The position numbers and the translations under genes are program-made. Shown here piece by piece: positions 36,908 through 43,263 of a stretch of DNA of 64,000 nt (the stretch's first letter is position 1; every line of letters starts with the position of its first letter). Source of the stretch: Sphaerobacter thermophilus DSM 20745 (GTDB lineage Bacteria > Chloroflexota > Chloroflexia > Thermomicrobiales > Thermomicrobiaceae); NCBI RefSeq assembly GCF_000024985.1, contig NC_013523.1, forward strand, positions 806,001-870,000. Reading direction: 5' to 3'. The notes under the pieces are model-generated. The model ran no database searches, was not told where the DNA came from, and saw nothing but the letters and a program-made list of their open reading frames with translations.

Positions 36908-37495
36908 ATGGCAGTGAGTCAGATCCCCGGCTATCGCTACGGCGACCCGTCGCTCCCACCCTCGTCGATCTCGCTGGACGATCTGCACCGGATCCAGCAG
37001 GCTCTTCTCTTCACCGAGGACGATGTCCGGGCTCTGCGTCGCGCGGGCGAGATCCTGGCGCCACAGGTCTCCGACATCCTCGACGTCTGGTACGGGTTCG
37101 TCGGCAACCATGACTTCCTGCTGGCCTACTTCTCGACGCCGGATGGGCCGGATGCGGATTATCTCGCTCGGGTCCGCGCCCGATTCGGCCAGTGGATCCT
37201 GGACACGTGCCGGGCCGAGTACGATGAGTCCTGGCTGGCCTACCAGGAGGAGATCGCCCGCCGGCACTATCAGGACAAGAACAAGACGGACGGCGTGCAG
37301 GGCGCGCCCCCGTTCATCCACTTTCGCTACGTCAACGCCCTGATCTACCCTATCTTCGCGACCATCCGTCCCTTCCTGGAGAAGGGGGAGTCGGACCCGG
37401 CGGAGGTCGAGCGGATGCATCAAGCGTGGCTGAAGGCGGTGCTCCTGCAGGTGACCCTCTGGAGCCAGCCGTACCTGCGAGAGGGAGCGTTCTGA
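36908..37495 (+). CDS. Protoglobin (single-domain haem gas-binding protein)
   Basis: 195 residues. Matches the protoglobin fold: an N-terminal pre-A extension (IPGYRYGDPSLPPSSISLDDL), WYGFVGNHDFLLAYF, and the key motif IARRHYQDKNKTDGV, where His120 corresponds to the proximal haem ligand of archaeal protoglobin. HFRYVNALIYPI then follows. Protoglobins bind O2, CO and NO. No signalling domain is attached, so it may sense, store or detoxify a gas. AAAGGAGG precedes ATG 36908. It is the first gene of an operon with a MarR regulator 3 nt downstream. Confidence 0.9.
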   Translation: MAVSQIPGYRYGDPSLPPSSISLDDLHRIQQALLFTEDDVRALRRAGEILAPQVSDILDVWYGFVGNHDFLLAYFSTPDGPDADYLARVRARFGQWILDTCRAEYDESWLAYQEEIARRHYQDKNKTDGVQGAPPFIHFRYVNALIYPIFATIRPFLEKGESDPAEVERMHQAWLKAVLLQVTLWSQPYLREGAF

Positions 37496-37498
37496 CGG

Positions 37499-38146
37499 GT
37501 GAGCCTCTACGACCCTGAACGCCGGCGGAACGACCCGGCAGCTCGCGTCGGGATGGCGCTGCTCCGCATGGCCCAGGCGGTGAAGAAACTTTCCCTCGCC
37601 GAGGCGGAGGAGCAGGGGCTCACGCCGGTGCAGGCTCAGACGCTCCTGTTCATCCGGCACACTAAGCCGTTCCTCGCGTCGGTCGGGCGGCTCGCAGCGG
37701 AGTTGGGGACCACCCACGCGACGGCGATCGGTGTGGTGGATGGCCTGATACGGCGCGGGCTGGTGGCGAAGGAGCCCAGTCCATCCGACCGGCGGGTGAC
37801 GCTCCTCCGACTCACCCCGCAGGGTGAGGCCGTGTGCCGAAACCTCGATGGGTGGGGCCAAACGCTGGCGGAGGCGCTCGGGCGCCTCGACTCCGATGAT
37901 CTGATGAGCCTGGAGCGACACCTGGGCGCCCTGGTGTGGAGCCTGCGTGAGGCGGGTGCCCTGCAGGTAAGCGAGCCGTGCCGCGGCTGCGTGCATTTCC
38001 GAGAGAACGCCGCACCGGGCACGCCCGAGCCGCACCGCTGTGTGCTGATCGACCGCTACCTGTCGGAAGCGGACGCTCGGCTCGCCTGCCCCGATTTCAC
38101 GCCCGCCGCCCTCGTGGGTCGGGACAGCCCAGCGAACCCCCGGTAG
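37499..38146 (+). CDS. MarR-family regulator with C-terminal four-cysteine motif
   Basis: 215 residues from GTG 37499. Residues about 15-150 are a MarR winged helix: LTPVQAQTLLFI, LAAELGTTHATAIGVVDGLIRRGLV and the wing PSDRRVTLLRLTPQGE. An extension beyond the usual length carries Cys161, Cys164, Cys181 and Cys197 (CRGCVHF, HRCVLIDRYL, LACPDF), a C-x2-C-x16-C-x15-C set that could bind Zn or an Fe-S cluster. It probably represses its own operon through the palindrome at 36865-36883. The ligand may be redox- or gas-related given the protoglobin partner. Inference only for the cluster. Confidence 0.85.
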   Translation: MSLYDPERRRNDPAARVGMALLRMAQAVKKLSLAEAEEQGLTPVQAQTLLFIRHTKPFLASVGRLAAELGTTHATAIGVVDGLIRRGLVAKEPSPSDRRVTLLRLTPQGEAVCRNLDGWGQTLAEALGRLDSDDLMSLERHLGALVWSLREAGALQVSEPCRGCVHFRENAAPGTPEPHRCVLIDRYLSEADARLACPDFTPAALVGRDSPANPR

Positions 38147-38248
38147 GGGGCGCAGGTGCCGTGGCCAGACTAGTGCCGATGACCGCGCTCGGGACGAACC
38201 GGACGCTCCAGGTCGCCTGCCCTCCGGGTGCGGAACCGGAAGCCTGCC

Positions 38249-38277
38249 TTGACACTGGGAGCGGGGTCTGATACATT
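38249..38277 (+). promoter_or_regulatory. Promoter of the leu operon leader
   Basis: Perfect TTGACA (38249-38254), 17-nt spacer, TACATT (38272-38277). The transcript should begin near 38284, directly before the T-box, about 500 nt ahead of leuA. Confidence 0.75.
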
Positions 38278-38286
38278 GCTCACAAT

Positions 38287-38532
38287 CTCATCTGGCGATG
38301 AGGGGAAGTAGTAGCGCGTTTCGGCGCACAGCGAGCCGGGGACAGGTGTGAGCCCGGCGCGAGCAGAGCGCGCGAACTCGTCCCTGAGCCGTCGGGGTGA
38401 AGCCGGTAGGTCTAGCTCCGACCGGGTCGCGTCCGTTAGCACGCGCAGAGTGGGCACCGCTCCGAGCGGGAGCAGTGCCAAGTAGGGTGGTACCGCGGGT
38501 GAAGCCCGTCCCTTCAGTGGGACGGGTTTTTT
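38287..38532 (+). ncRNA. T-box riboswitch (transcriptional) upstream of leuACDB
   Basis: The conserved T-box sequence AGGGTGGTACCGCGGG is at 38484-38499. It follows a Stem I with AGTA on the 5' side (near 38307) and GAACTC on the 3' side (38374-38379); CTC (Leu) at 38377-38379 is the best specifier candidate. A Stem III-like helix (GGCAC/GTGCC with GCTCC/GGGAGC) spans about 38453-38480. The intrinsic terminator is CCCGTCCC/GGGACGGG (38505-38526) with six T residues. Uncharged tRNA-Leu would stabilise the antiterminator and let transcription continue. The T-box motif and terminator are certain; the specifier assignment is inference. Confidence 0.9.
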
Positions 38533-38565
38533 GATTGCCGAGAGCGGCACGAGCGGTAGGACGAC

Positions 38566-38676
38566 ATGGTGATCGGGCAGATGGCAGCGCGCAACCTCGA
38601 CCTTCTCGGGCTTTTCCTTCTTTCCCTTCTTCGGCCCCTTGGCGGGGCGAGAGGCGCGCTGGGAGGCTGCCCGTAA
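38566..38676 (+). CDS. leuL: Leucine-rich leader peptide of the leu attenuator
   Basis: A 36-codon frame from ATG 38566 (after GGTAGGA), or 31 codons from the in-frame ATG at 38581, ending in TAA at 38674-38676. From 38596 the peptide reads LDLLGLFLLSLLRPL: nine Leu in fifteen codons, all CTT or CTC. CTT is uncommon in the other genes of this window, which prefer CTG and CTC. The frame ends just before the terminator/antiterminator pair, as in enterobacterial leuL. Ribosome stalling at these codons under leucine shortage would favour readthrough into leuA. It is too short for routine gene calling. Confidence 0.85.
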   Translation: MVIGQMAARNLDLLGLFLLSLLRPLGGARGALGGCP

Positions 38677-38739
38677 CGCGGGCATACGTATCAGACCGGA
38701 ACACTCACCGGCCTCCCAGCACGGGAGGCCGGTTCGTTT
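38658..38739 (+). promoter_or_regulatory. Attenuator: mutually exclusive antiterminator and terminator
   Basis: GCTGGGAGGC (38658-38667, inside the leader peptide frame) is an exact complement of GCCTCCCAGC (38711-38720). The latter overlaps CCGGCCTCCC (38708-38717), which pairs exactly with GGGAGGCCGG (38723-38732) to form a 10-bp terminator followed by TTCGTTT. The two helices cannot coexist. A ribosome at the stop codon covers 38658-38667 and allows the terminator; one stalled at the Leu codons leaves it free. A small hairpin TGCCCG/CGGGCA (38668-38684) with the stop codon in its loop may act as a pause site. Confidence 0.85.
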
Positions 38740-38787
38740 ATCCGGCACTTGTCATCACGTCGGACTGGAGAGGAGCGGAGGTACCCG

Positions 38788-40314
38788 ATGAGCGACAGGT
38801 TGATCATCTTCGACACGACGCTGCGTGACGGCGAGCAGTCGCCGGGTGCGACGATGGCGACCCCGGAGAAGCTGGAAGTCGCCCGAATGCTCGCCCGCAT
38901 GGGCGTCGACGTGATCGAGGCCGGCTTCCCGGCCGCGTCGCCCGGCGATCTGGAGGCCGTGCGGACCATCGCGCGCGAGGTCAAGGGGAGCGTGATCTGC
39001 GCCCTGGCGCGGGCCAATGACCAGGACATCGACGCCGCCTGGGAAGGGATACGCCCGGCGGAGGAGGCGCGCATCCACACGTTCATCGCGACCTCGCCGG
39101 TCCACATGGAGTACAAGCTCCGCATGACGCCGGACCAGGTCGTTGAGGCGGCCCGCCGGGCTGTGACGCGGGCCCGTGGCTACGTCTCCAACGTCGAATT
39201 CTCGGCCGAGGATGCGACCCGCAGCGACTGGGACTTCCTCTGCCGCATCTTTGCGGTGGCGATTGAGGCCGGGGCGACGACGATTAACGTGCCGGACACG
39301 GTCGGCTACACCACGCCGGCCGAGTACGCGCGGCTCATCACCTACCTGATGGAGAACACGCCCGGTATCGAGAACGTCGTGGTCAGCGTCCACTGCCACG
39401 ATGACCTGGGGATGGCGACGGCCAACACCCTGGCCGCGATCCAGGCAGGCGCGCGGCAGGCGGAGGTCACGATCAACGGGATCGGGGAGCGCGCGGGCAA
39501 CACCTCGCTGGAAGAGGTCGTCATGGCGCTCCACACTCGCAAGGACTTCTACGGCGGGATCATGCCGCGCATCGAGACCCAGATGCTGGTCCCGGCGTCG
39601 CGGCTGGTAAGCCGGACAACCGGGATCGTGGTGCAGCCGAACAAGGCGATCGTCGGTGCCAACGCGTTCGCTCACGAGGCCGGCATCCACCAGGACGGCA
39701 TGTTGAAGCATCGCGACACCTACGAGATCATGACGCCGCAGTCGGTCGGCTGGGAGTCGAGCCGGTTGGTGCTCGGCAAGCACTCCGGACGTGCCGGGTT
39801 CACCGCCCGACTCAAGGAGCTGGGCTACGGCGATCTGAGCCGGGAGCAGATCGAGGAGCTATACCGGCGATTCATCGACCTGACCGACCGGAAGAAGACC
39901 GTCACCAACGCGGACCTGATCGCGATCGTCGAAGAGGACCTGCAGCACGGCCCGGAGCGCTACGTGCTGTCCGGCTGGCGGGCGCACTCCGGGTCCGACG
40001 GCCAGGCCGAGGCCTGGGTCAAGATGGTCATCGACGGCGTCGAGCGGGAGGCGTCGGCGGTCGGGAACGGGCAGATCGACGCGCTCTTCAAGGCGATCGA
40101 CCGGCTGGTGAACAGTGGTTGTACGCTGGAGGCGTTCCATATCGACGCGGTCACCCCGGGCGAGGATGCGCAGGGAGAGGTGACGGTGCGCGTGCGCTGT
40201 GGCGCGAACATCTACAACGGCCGGGGCGTGGCGACCGATATTGTGGAGGCTGGAGTACGCGCCTACCTGATGGCGCTGAACCGGGCAGGGGTAGCAACGG
40301 AGGTGACGGTCTAA
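38788..40314 (+). CDS. leuA: 2-isopropylmalate synthase
   Basis: 508 residues from ATG 38788 after GGAGGT. It condenses acetyl-CoA with 2-oxoisovalerate, the first committed step of leucine synthesis. The TIM-barrel carries FDTTLRDGEQSPG near the start, VHCHDDLGMATANTL (metal-binding HxH), NGIGERAGNTSLEEVVMAL and GANAFAHEAGIHQDG. The C-terminal LeuA regulatory domain (about 380-508, with TVRVRCGANIYNGRGVATDIVEA) is the leucine-feedback module. It heads leuA-leuC-leuD-leuB under the T-box and attenuator, 49 nt after the attenuator stem. Confidence 0.95.
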   Translation: MSDRLIIFDTTLRDGEQSPGATMATPEKLEVARMLARMGVDVIEAGFPAASPGDLEAVRTIAREVKGSVICALARANDQDIDAAWEGIRPAEEARIHTFIATSPVHMEYKLRMTPDQVVEAARRAVTRARGYVSNVEFSAEDATRSDWDFLCRIFAVAIEAGATTINVPDTVGYTTPAEYARLITYLMENTPGIENVVVSVHCHDDLGMATANTLAAIQAGARQAEVTINGIGERAGNTSLEEVVMALHTRKDFYGGIMPRIETQMLVPASRLVSRTTGIVVQPNKAIVGANAFAHEAGIHQDGMLKHRDTYEIMTPQSVGWESSRLVLGKHSGRAGFTARLKELGYGDLSREQIEELYRRFIDLTDRKKTVTNADLIAIVEEDLQHGPERYVLSGWRAHSGSDGQAEAWVKMVIDGVEREASAVGNGQIDALFKAIDRLVNSGCTLEAFHIDAVTPGEDAQGEVTVRVRCGANIYNGRGVATDIVEAGVRAYLMALNRAGVATEVTV

Positions 40315-40316
40315 GC

Positions 40317-41573
40317 ATGGGCCAGACGATGACCGAAAAGATCCTCTCGCGCGCGGCGGGCCGCCGGGTGGAGCCCGGCGAGATCGCCGAAGTCGCGGTG
40401 GATCTGGTGATGACCAACGACATCACCGCGCCGCTGGCGATCAAGGAGTTCAAGAAGACCGGGCTGGAGAAGGTTTTCGACCCGAACAAGGTCGTCTTCG
40501 TGCCGGATCATTTCGTCCCCGCCAAGGATATCAAGGCGGCCGAGCAGGCGAAGGTCATGCGCGAGTTCGCCGTCGAGCAGGGGGCGGTGTACTTCGAGGT
40601 TGGCCGCGCCGGCATCGAGCACGTTGTCTTGCCGGAGAACGGCCTCACGTTGCCGGGCCAGGTGATCATCGGCGGGGACTCCCACACCTGCACCTACGGC
40701 GCGTTCAATGCGTTCGCGACCGGTATGGGCTCGACCGACATCGCCGCGGCGATGGCGCTTGGCACCACCTGGGTGCGTGTGCCGCCGACGATCAAGTTCG
40801 TCTACAACGGCACGCTGCCCGAGGGGGTCGGCGGCAAGGACCTGATCCTCTACACCATCGGCCAGATCGGGGTGGACGGTGCGCTCTACGCGGTCATGGA
40901 GTTCACCGGCGAGGTGATCGACGCCCTCGACATGGACGGCCGCATCGCCATGGCCAACATGGCCATCGAGGCGGGTGCCAAGACCGGCATCTTCGCCTGC
41001 GACGACAAGACCCGCGAGTGGCTGGCCCGCGTCACCGATCGGCCGTACGAGCCGGTGGAGAGCGACCCGGATGCCGAGTACCTGAAGGTCATCGAGTTCG
41101 ACGTGTCCAATCTCAAGCCGGTGGTGGCGCTGCCGCACCTGCCGTCGAACGTGTACCCGGCCGATGAGGTAGGCGACATGCCGATCCATCAGGTCGTCAT
41201 CGGCTCCTGCACGAATGGCCGCATTAGCGATCTGCGTGAGGTGGCCAAGATCCTCAAGGGCCGCCAGGTGCACCCGAACGTGCGCTGCATCGTCATCCCG
41301 GGCAGCCAGGAGGTGGCCAAGCAGGCCACGCGCGAGGGGCTGGCCGACATCTTCCTGGAGGCGGGTGCGATCTTCTCCACCTCCACCTGCGGCCCGTGCC
41401 TGGGCGGCTACATGGGTGTCCTGGCCAAGGGCGAGCGCTGCGTCTCGACCACCAACCGCAACTTCCGCGGGCGCATGGGGCACCGGGAGGCCGAGATCAT
41501 CCTGGCCGGTCCGCAGGTGGCGGCCGCCAGCGCCGTGCTCGGCCGTGTCGCCTCGCCCGCCGCGTTGAACTAA
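40317..41573 (+). CDS. leuC: 3-isopropylmalate dehydratase large subunit
   Basis: 418 residues, the short form shared with archaea and many thermophiles. It isomerises 2- to 3-isopropylmalate with LeuD. The aconitase-type [4Fe-4S] ligands are in GSCTNGRISDL and STCGPCLGGYMG; GGDSHTCTYGAFNAFATGMGSTD is the substrate region. It starts 2 nt after leuA; an ATG four codons later (MTEKILSR) is also possible. This subgroup includes homoaconitase-like enzymes, but the leu operon context settles the role. Confidence 0.93.
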   Translation: MGQTMTEKILSRAAGRRVEPGEIAEVAVDLVMTNDITAPLAIKEFKKTGLEKVFDPNKVVFVPDHFVPAKDIKAAEQAKVMREFAVEQGAVYFEVGRAGIEHVVLPENGLTLPGQVIIGGDSHTCTYGAFNAFATGMGSTDIAAAMALGTTWVRVPPTIKFVYNGTLPEGVGGKDLILYTIGQIGVDGALYAVMEFTGEVIDALDMDGRIAMANMAIEAGAKTGIFACDDKTREWLARVTDRPYEPVESDPDAEYLKVIEFDVSNLKPVVALPHLPSNVYPADEVGDMPIHQVVIGSCTNGRISDLREVAKILKGRQVHPNVRCIVIPGSQEVAKQATREGLADIFLEAGAIFSTSTCGPCLGGYMGVLAKGERCVSTTNRNFRGRMGHREAEIILAGPQVAAASAVLGRVASPAALN

Positions 41574-41632: not shown

Positions 41633-42151
41633 ATGCTGATTCGAGGCAAGGTCTGGAAGTTCGGGGATGACATCGACACCGATGTGATCATCCCCGCGCG
41701 CTATCTGGTCACGTTCGAGCCGGAAGAGCTCGCCAAGCACGTCATGGAGGACATCGACCCGACCTTCGCCAGCAAGGTCCAGCCGGGCGACATCATCGTC
41801 GCCGGCAAGAACTTCGGCTGCGGCTCCTCGCGCGAGCACGCGCCGATCGCGATCAAGGGCGCGGGGGTCGCGGCGGTGGTCGCCGAGTCGTACGCGCGCA
41901 TCTTCTTCCGCAACGCGATCAACATCGGCCTGCCGGTGATCGACGCGGCAGAGGCGGCTCGCGAGGCGGAGGAGGGTGACATCCTGGAGATCGACACCGA
42001 AGAGGGCGAGATCCTCAACACCCGCACCGGCAAGACCTACCGGGCCGCGCGCTACGACGACTTCATCCAGGACATCATCAACGCCGGTGGTCTGATGGAG
42101 GCGGTCACGCGGCGAGTCCAGGAGCGGCGGGGGGAGCAGCAGCCCTCATGA
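41633..42151 (+). CDS. leuD: 3-isopropylmalate dehydratase small subunit
   Basis: 172 residues; the swivelling domain partner of LeuC. Motifs: [17 protein letters not shown] at the N-terminus and [19 protein letters not shown], the substrate-recognition loop of the family. The [11 protein letters not shown] segment follows. The length fits the archaeal/thermophile type (about 165-170 aa). The ATG at 41633 follows AGGGAG by about 10 nt. Its end overlaps leuB by four bases (ATGA), giving coupled translation. Confidence 0.94.
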
Positions 42152-43263
42152 GCGACCGCACCTTCCACATTCTCCTCCTGCCGGGCGACGGGGTCGGACC
42201 GGAGGTGACCGCCGAGGCTCGGGCACTGCTGGAAGCGGTCGGGCCTGCCGTCGGGGCGCGCTTCGTCTTCAACGAGGGACTGATCGGCGGCGCCGCGATC
42301 GACGCGTACGGCACTCCGCTGCGGGACGAGGAGATCGATGCGGCGCTGGCGAGCGATGCGGTCTTCCTCGGCGCGGTCGGCGGCCCGGCCTGGGACAACC
42401 TGCGCGGGGAAGCCCGCCCGGAGTCGGGTCTGCTGCGCCTGCGCAAGGCGCTGGGGCTCTTCGCCAACCTGCGGCCGGTGCGTGTCTTCGACGCGCTGGT
42501 GGACGCGTCCCCGCTCAAGCCGCAGATCGCCCGCGGGGCCGATCTGCTGGTCGTCCGCGAGCTGACCGGCGGGCTCTACTTCGGCCGCCCCTCCGAGCGG
42601 CGGACGGACGAGGCGGGTCGCCGCGCGATCGACACGCTTCCCTATACCGACCATGAGATCGAGCGGATCGTCGACCTGGCCTTCCGCCTGGCACGGCAAC
42701 GCCGCCGCAAGGTGACCAGCATCGACAAAGCCAACGTCCTCGCGACCTCCCAGCTCTGGCGGGAGGTTGCGACCGAGGTGGGCGAGCGCTACCCCGACGT
42801 CACCCTGGAGCACATGCTGGTCGACGCCGGCTCGATGCGCCTGATCGCACGGCCGCGCGACTTCGACGTGCTGGTGACCGAGAACCTGTTCGGCGACATC
42901 CTCAGCGACGAGGCCGGGGTGCTGGCCGGGTCGCTCGGGATGTTGCCCTCAGCGAGCCTCCACGGTGAGCCGCCCACTCGTCCCGGGACGGTCGCGCCGA
43001 TGTTCGGTCTGTACGAGCCCGTCCACGGCAGCGCGCCGGACATCGCCGGTCAGGGCTTGGCGAACCCGCTCGGCGCCATCCTCAGCGTGTCGATGATGCT
43101 GCGCTTCTCATTCGGACTGGCCGACGCAGCCGACGCGATCGAGGCAGCCGTGGAGGATGCCCTGGCGGCGGGCTATCGCACCCGCGACATCGGGGGCACC
43201 GCGACCACCGCCGAGTTGGGCGCGCAGGTCCGCGAGCGGGCGCTGGCGCGCCTCGGCGGGTGA
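42148..43263 (+). CDS. leuB: 3-isopropylmalate dehydrogenase
   Basis: 371 residues. It oxidises and decarboxylates 3-isopropylmalate with NAD+, giving 2-oxoisocaproate in leucine synthesis. Motifs: [50 protein letters not shown] and the signature [25 protein letters not shown], then [24 protein letters not shown]. The start overlaps leuD. It ends the leu operon; no strong terminator was seen in the 160 nt before the next promoter and gene. Confidence 0.95.

Follow-up and report, generated by a model that had tools for sequence, protein, structure and literature searches.

How transcription of the leucine biosynthesis genes is matched to the leucine supply of the cell is the question raised by the RNA leader in front of leuA in Sphaerobacter thermophilus. 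We analyzed a window of 64,000 nucleotides, meaning the whole stretch of DNA under study, from this genome of 3.99 Mb, which is divided between two replicons of 2,741,033 and 1,252,731 bases. The forward strand of the window carries leuA (38788..40314; 2-isopropylmalate synthase, PRK00915.1-3 and TIGR00973), which is preceded by a Shine-Dalgarno-like GGAGG at 38777-38781, followed by leuC (40317..41573; aconitase family, start approximate), leuD (41633..42151) and leuB (42148..43263). Our results indicate that leuACDB is probably controlled by two tRNA-Leu sensors placed in series on one leader RNA. The first, a T-box at which uncharged tRNA-Leu(GAG) would oppose a first terminator, is strongly supported by its sequence; for the second, ribosome-mediated attenuation of transcription is the most likely mechanism.

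The T-box and its terminator stand between a promoter-like site and the leader reading frame, and both were absent from the first-pass annotation of this locus. The promoter-like site (TTGACA-17-TACATT with an extended -10 TG; 38249..38277, forward strand) was the sole such site detected from 38100 to 38900. The T-box leader (38289..38516, forward strand) matched RF00230 over the full length of the model (positions 1-219) with 105.6 bits, against a gathering threshold of 93. In the T-box alignment, the specifier is CUC (Leu) at 38377..38379, directly after GAA; this specifier-loop form, GAA...XXXA, matches that described in PMC5794164, and the CUC specifier also occurs in the orthologues whose stem I sequence was covered. 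Farther downstream, the T-box sequence GGGUGGUACCGCG (38485..38497) includes UGGU at 38488-38491, which fits the ACCA end of tRNA-Leu(GAG), the acceptor end of this tRNA (...GGCACCA) being complementary to the bulge. Terminator 1 follows at 38505..38532, with the stem CCCGTCCC/GGGACGGG and then TTTTTT. A full-length match above the gathering threshold, a specifier that agrees with the pathway, a UGGN bulge and a competing terminator, which together mark membership of RF00230, are all present. Immediately 5' of the leu T-box, genes for a protoglobin and for a regulator of the MarR family lie at 36908-38146 in the same orientation.

Downstream of terminator 1 lies a reading frame of 36 codons (38566..38676, forward strand) that is presumably translated, giving MVIGQMAARNLDLLGLFLLSLLRPLGGARGALGGCP before the stop. 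Ten of its codons specify Leu (7 CTT, 2 CTC and 1 CTG). The first-pass annotation had pointed to nine Leu codons among fifteen at 38596..38640, the predicted stall region, and this run proved to be the sole 15-codon window of such density in all six frames of the whole 64 kb. The dominance of CTT that it described was likewise confirmed: 7 of the 10 leader Leu codons are CTT, as against 4 of the 163 Leu codons in a comparison set (binomial P 6e-10) made up of six genes of the neighbourhood, namely leuA, leuC, leuD and leuB plus the two that precede them. The same annotation put forward the idea that the rarity of CTT raises stalling, which it might do; an alternative reason for the CTT/CTC bias is that one tRNA may serve both codons. 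The genome holds one tRNA-Leu gene each for the anticodons UAA, GAG, UAG, CAA and CAG, and tRNA-Leu(GAG) reads both CUC, the T-box specifier, and CUU. Nine of the ten leader Leu codons are CUU or CUC, and the T-box and the leader attenuator would both read this single-copy tRNA. Sharing of tRNA-Leu(GAG) leaves the excess of CTT over CTC without explanation. One codon of the run, CTT at 38629-38631, aligns with a codon that relatives keep as CTT-A[GC]Y; directly 3' of it is hairpin H1 (GCCCC/GGGGC; 38634..38648, forward strand), which is conserved in relatives and could be a pausing hairpin. Searches of the leader peptide gave 0 matches in NCBIfam and 0 matches above the cut-off in Pfam.

The second half of the leader offers two alternative pairings. 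The antiterminator arm GCTGGGAGGCTG (38658..38669, forward strand) was checked by complementarity and by shuffling, and the terminator 2 hairpin (38707..38733, forward strand) has 11 bp and the tail TCGTTTATCC, a weak U-tail. The complementarities on which the first-pass annotation built its mutually exclusive structures are exact: 38658-38667 is the reverse complement of 38711-38720, and 38708-38717 that of 38723-38732, over 10 nt in each case. Mutual exclusion itself also held, in that the pairing of the arm in the window surpassed 500 of 500 dinucleotide shuffles of the spacer. The 106 nt from 38640 to 38745 fold better than 200 of 200 shuffles (z = -3.9). The leader TAA at 38674-38676 lies +3 nt past the paired arm, a placement that, as had been proposed, fits blocking of the arm by a terminating ribosome.

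Partition-function folding of the window sequence at full equilibrium gave victory to terminator 2 (P 0.98), and the switch must therefore be kinetic, decided while the RNA is being transcribed. When a ribosome was placed on the Leu codons before synthesis of the terminator's 3' strand, the 5' strand was engaged in upstream pairing to 66-100%. Moving the ribosome to the stop codon lowered this value to 0-64%, and in genera g1 (the genus of the window) and g4 the 5' strands were still paired upstream about half the time. When no ribosome was present, the antiterminator formed as well and kept the 5' strand of the terminator paired upstream; consequently, folding without a ribosome revealed no protector (1:2) hairpin of the trp type. 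Such a hairpin provides for termination without translation and is not essential in every attenuator.

Comparison with relatives gives this anatomy its meaning. We collected LeuA orthologues from the class and aligned the stretch between T-box and leuA. All orthologues of families f1 and f3 with enough upstream sequence have a T-box, a short reading frame with a conserved CTT, and the GCCCC...GGGGC hairpin. The codon after the conserved CTT is mostly A[GC]Y; it is CGG or CGC in g1 and ATC in one f3 locus. A search of 158 genomes of the class with the pattern CTTASYNRGCCCCN{3,8}GGGGC found the signature CTTASYNRGCCCC...GGGGC only in f1 and f3, two families of the order (18 of the 158 genomes), and in every locus among those listed it stands behind a T-box. 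The pattern misses g1 because of the CGG or CGC codon, and g1 was therefore placed by alignment. Outside f1 and f3, the 20 leuA upstream regions examined from the class contained no T-box, and leuA of family f2 lacks the unit of T-box plus leader. Family f1 has, between the GCCCC...GGGGC hairpin and leuA, a further strong hairpin of 8-14 bp. In f3 (L024-L028), the T-box and leader signature are kept, terminator 2 and the antiterminator are absent, and the leader stops just 6-45 nt past the conserved CTT; control in f3 must thus differ.

The leader frame persists throughout genera g1 to g5 of the family, the single exception being L016, in which it continues beyond the antiterminator arm. Counted from the conserved CTT, the stop codon comes at +45 to +54 nt, and in most loci it is found between -6 and +6 nt relative to the arm end. 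The arms themselves differ (GCTGGGAGGC in g1, GCGGGACGGC in g2, CTGGGAGGTCG in g3 and GGAGACTGA in g4), and in four of the five genera the arm, the 5' strand and the 3' strand of the terminator match each other despite these differences. At one position, g1 and g4 are distinguished by a C to U change in the terminator 5' strand, accompanied by G to A changes in both the terminator 3' strand and the antiterminator. For every locus, we asked how many of 500 dinucleotide shuffles let the spacer pair as well with the 5' strand of the last hairpin as the real sequence does; the loci are related to one another, so that the counts are not independent. Shuffles equalled or exceeded the real pairing in 0/500 cases for g1, 3-4/500 for two g4 loci and 48/500 for L023, 9-36/500 for most g2 loci and 128/500 for L020, and 37-125/500 for g3 leuA. 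For the leuS copies of g3 described below, the numbers were 0, 0 and 359 of 500, no antiterminator better than the shuffles being found in the leuS copy L070. In g5, no antiterminator beyond chance was detected (215/500 shuffles equal or better).

These comparisons support the ribosome-controlled attenuation proposed in the first-pass annotation through the conserved frame, the position of the stop codon and the concerted strands; however, the leader forms just the latter part of the device, the leucine T-box acting first. Anatomy together with comparison thus argues for attenuation at the second step. Several observations speak against it: the weak or missing U-tails of terminator 2, the lack of an antiterminator signal in g5 and L070, the L016 frame that overruns the arm, the absence of terminator 2 from f3, and the partial upstream pairing in g1 and g4 that persists with a ribosome at the stop codon. 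The tail of terminator 2 is weak in g1, strong in g4 (TTTTTGTTTG) and in the incomplete locus of G101, whose terminator is CGGCCCCC/GGGGGTCG, and is missing in g2, g3 and g5. Exactly these three genera have also lost the U-runs of the T-box terminators in their leuA leaders, as have the leuS T-boxes of g2; lack of a tail is therefore not peculiar to hairpin 2. Locus by locus, the loss of U-runs was seen in L012-L020, L057, L058, L070, L225 and L226 (g2, g3 and g5), the leuS T-boxes of g2 and g3 included. This pattern suggests that in g2, g3 and g5 intrinsic termination may run without a U-tail or be replaced.

In g3, a second copy of the arrangement precedes leuS, with a T-box, a leader containing L-S-R-P-R-x-G-A, an antiterminator and a hairpin. 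The leuS T-boxes of g3 are 82-89% identical to the leuA T-boxes of the same genus and 69-73% identical to the leuS T-boxes of g2, which indicates that T-box and leader were copied together. In one of these copies, L057, the antiterminator is exact over 14 nt. The leuS leader of Sphaerobacter has a T-box and shows no clear Leu run or hairpin pair.

That Sphaerobacter leuS T-box leader (G000:C1:1582271-1582564, minus strand) contains a complete nested tRNA-Ala(GGC) gene, CCA included (in L002, minus strand, with the tRNA at 1556-1631), in the loop position of the stem before the antiterminator (GGATAGGCG-[tRNA]-CGCCTATC). It is the sole tRNA-Ala(GGC) listed for the genome, and its excision would split the leuS riboswitch. 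Nesting of a tRNA in the leuS T-box was also seen in g1, g4, g53, families f2, f3 and f4, and probably f14; g2 and g3 instead carry the tRNA immediately before the leuS T-box. The literature searched yielded no report of a tRNA gene nested in a T-box leader. The genome has eleven T-boxes in all (L003-L008 and L041-L043 among them); the frames downstream, assigned by eye, include trpE, trpS, ileS, valS, thrS, pheS and metX besides leuA and leuS, and the T-box of L005, whose leader of ~350 nt is unusually long, precedes a LysX/RimK-like frame.

Could the T-box regulate leuA by itself, with the leader frame and hairpin 2 as a degenerate or passive remnant, or as an extra terminator that tightens the T-box? 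We regard this as unlikely. A T-box by itself commonly controls leu genes, f3 does without the second hairpin, hairpin 2 ends in a weak U-tail, and the g4 leaders retain few Leu codons, all of which would suit a second element of little consequence. A remnant would not readily explain, however, why antiterminator and terminator co-vary across genera, why the frame is conserved with its stop held at the arm, or why the pair also occurs before leuS, with the 14-nt exact antiterminator of L057.

Another possibility is that the second element controls translation of leuA in the style of the actinobacterial LEU element, in which the Leu run pairs with the Shine-Dalgarno site and stalling frees that site. 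In the original account (Seliverstov et al. 2005, PMC1262725), the LEU element is described without a terminator and without a T-box; like the Sphaerobacter leader, it lies upstream of leuA and has a short frame with a Leu run, then an AGC-type codon and a G+C hairpin. We compared leaders of Nocardia, Nonomuraea and Microbacterium, and both groups indeed share the Leu run, the CTT-AGC-like codons and the G+C hairpin (L046, MLRGLLLSCRGGGL; L047, MQFGLLLLSCRDESSD); the three genera without terminator U-runs would also fit translational control. Rfam offers no family for the leader part, either in the 64-kb window or in the actinobacterial loci. Identity with the LEU element was rejected, as the defining base stem between Leu codons and Shine-Dalgarno site is unsupported: in the window, 218/500 shuffles were as good, and among all loci only L017 rose above the shuffle level, in a test in which the actinobacterial loci themselves are not strong either. 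Moreover, hairpin 2 ends at least 25 nt before leuA and leaves the Shine-Dalgarno site free. Translational control of this kind is thus very improbable. It is more doubtful still that the leader is an arrest peptide (L-S-R-P-R-G-G-A) that stalls on a ligand and not through the supply of Leu-tRNA. Much of g2, g3 and g5 does keep this motif together with the CTT codon, but the residues in place of its S, R and R differ among leaders (LTGPRIGA, LTGPLLGA, LTWPHCGA, LTRPHRGA and LLRPLGGA) while the RNA GCCCC...GGGGC stays constant, so that the constraint looks like RNA pairing.

We therefore return to two tRNA-Leu sensors acting in series. RNA polymerase would meet the T-box first, where uncharged tRNA-Leu(GAG), in contact with both the CUC specifier and the UGGU bulge, would stabilize the antiterminator; without it, terminator 1 (38505-38532) would end transcription. 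Translation of transcripts that extend past terminator 1 would begin at 38566. With charged tRNA-Leu(GAG) in ample supply, the ribosome would reach the stop codon at 38674-38676 and mask the arm at 38658-38669, allowing terminator 2 to form. If it is scarce, the ribosome would stall in the Leu run, and the arm would pair with 38709-38720 before the 3' strand of the terminator exists, letting polymerase proceed into leuACDB. The two checks would then multiply, the leu genes being switched on only when uncharged tRNA is present and ribosomes are actually starved; stalling, termination at the second site and this AND logic are what we infer from the sequences. The unit of T-box plus leader also appears to be movable, as it stands before leuS in g3.

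Neither a T-box nor a leader attenuator is new alone. Like B. subtilis ilv-leu, Sphaerobacter has a Leu-specifier T-box before leucine biosynthesis genes; no peptide attenuator is known downstream of the B. subtilis T-box. The S. aureus ilv-leu operon combines a Leu-rich leader-peptide attenuator with CodY, a T-box having been tested and rejected there (PMC5794164). With this attenuator and the classical proteobacterial leu attenuators, the Sphaerobacter leader shares a Leu-rich leader and a competing terminator and antiterminator before leucine genes; unlike it, they have no T-box in front, and the protector hairpin was not found in the Sphaerobacter leader. The nearest precedent is the B. 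subtilis at (rtpA/anti-TRAP) operon, which, as summarized in PMC11255114 from Chen and Yanofsky (2003, 2004), places a T-box and a Trp leader peptide one after the other in a single RNA, each of them responding to charging of the tRNA for the same amino acid. According to that summary, the anti-TRAP leader peptide controls translation, whereas the prediction for the Sphaerobacter leader is control of transcription at a second terminator; the former system concerns tryptophan and an anti-repressor in Bacillota, the latter leucine, a biosynthetic operon and leuS in Chloroflexota. The tandem of T-box and ppGpp riboswitch attributed to Sherlock et al. 2018 in PMC7583486 is an AND gate of the same serial two-switch logic, with ppGpp as the second input where ribosome stalling would serve here. 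In the literature searched, we found no Chloroflexota example of two serial transcription checkpoints that read one and the same Leu isoacceptor.

We see an even chance that the whole constitutes a transferable two-input gate, in which a T-box and an attenuator read one isoacceptor, tRNA-Leu(GAG), at serial checkpoints, which moves from leuA to leuS and whose second stage is open to polymerase in the absence of a ribosome, opposite to the design of E. coli trp. T-boxes and leader peptides are usually viewed as alternative solutions to one problem; here, both sensors appear to be kept in series for the same tRNA in at least five genera. Such a pair would allow one to ask what each sensor contributes, the concentration of uncharged tRNA on the one hand and actual ribosome stalling on the other, and it would extend peptide attenuation to Chloroflexota as part of a natural two-checkpoint gate for leucine.
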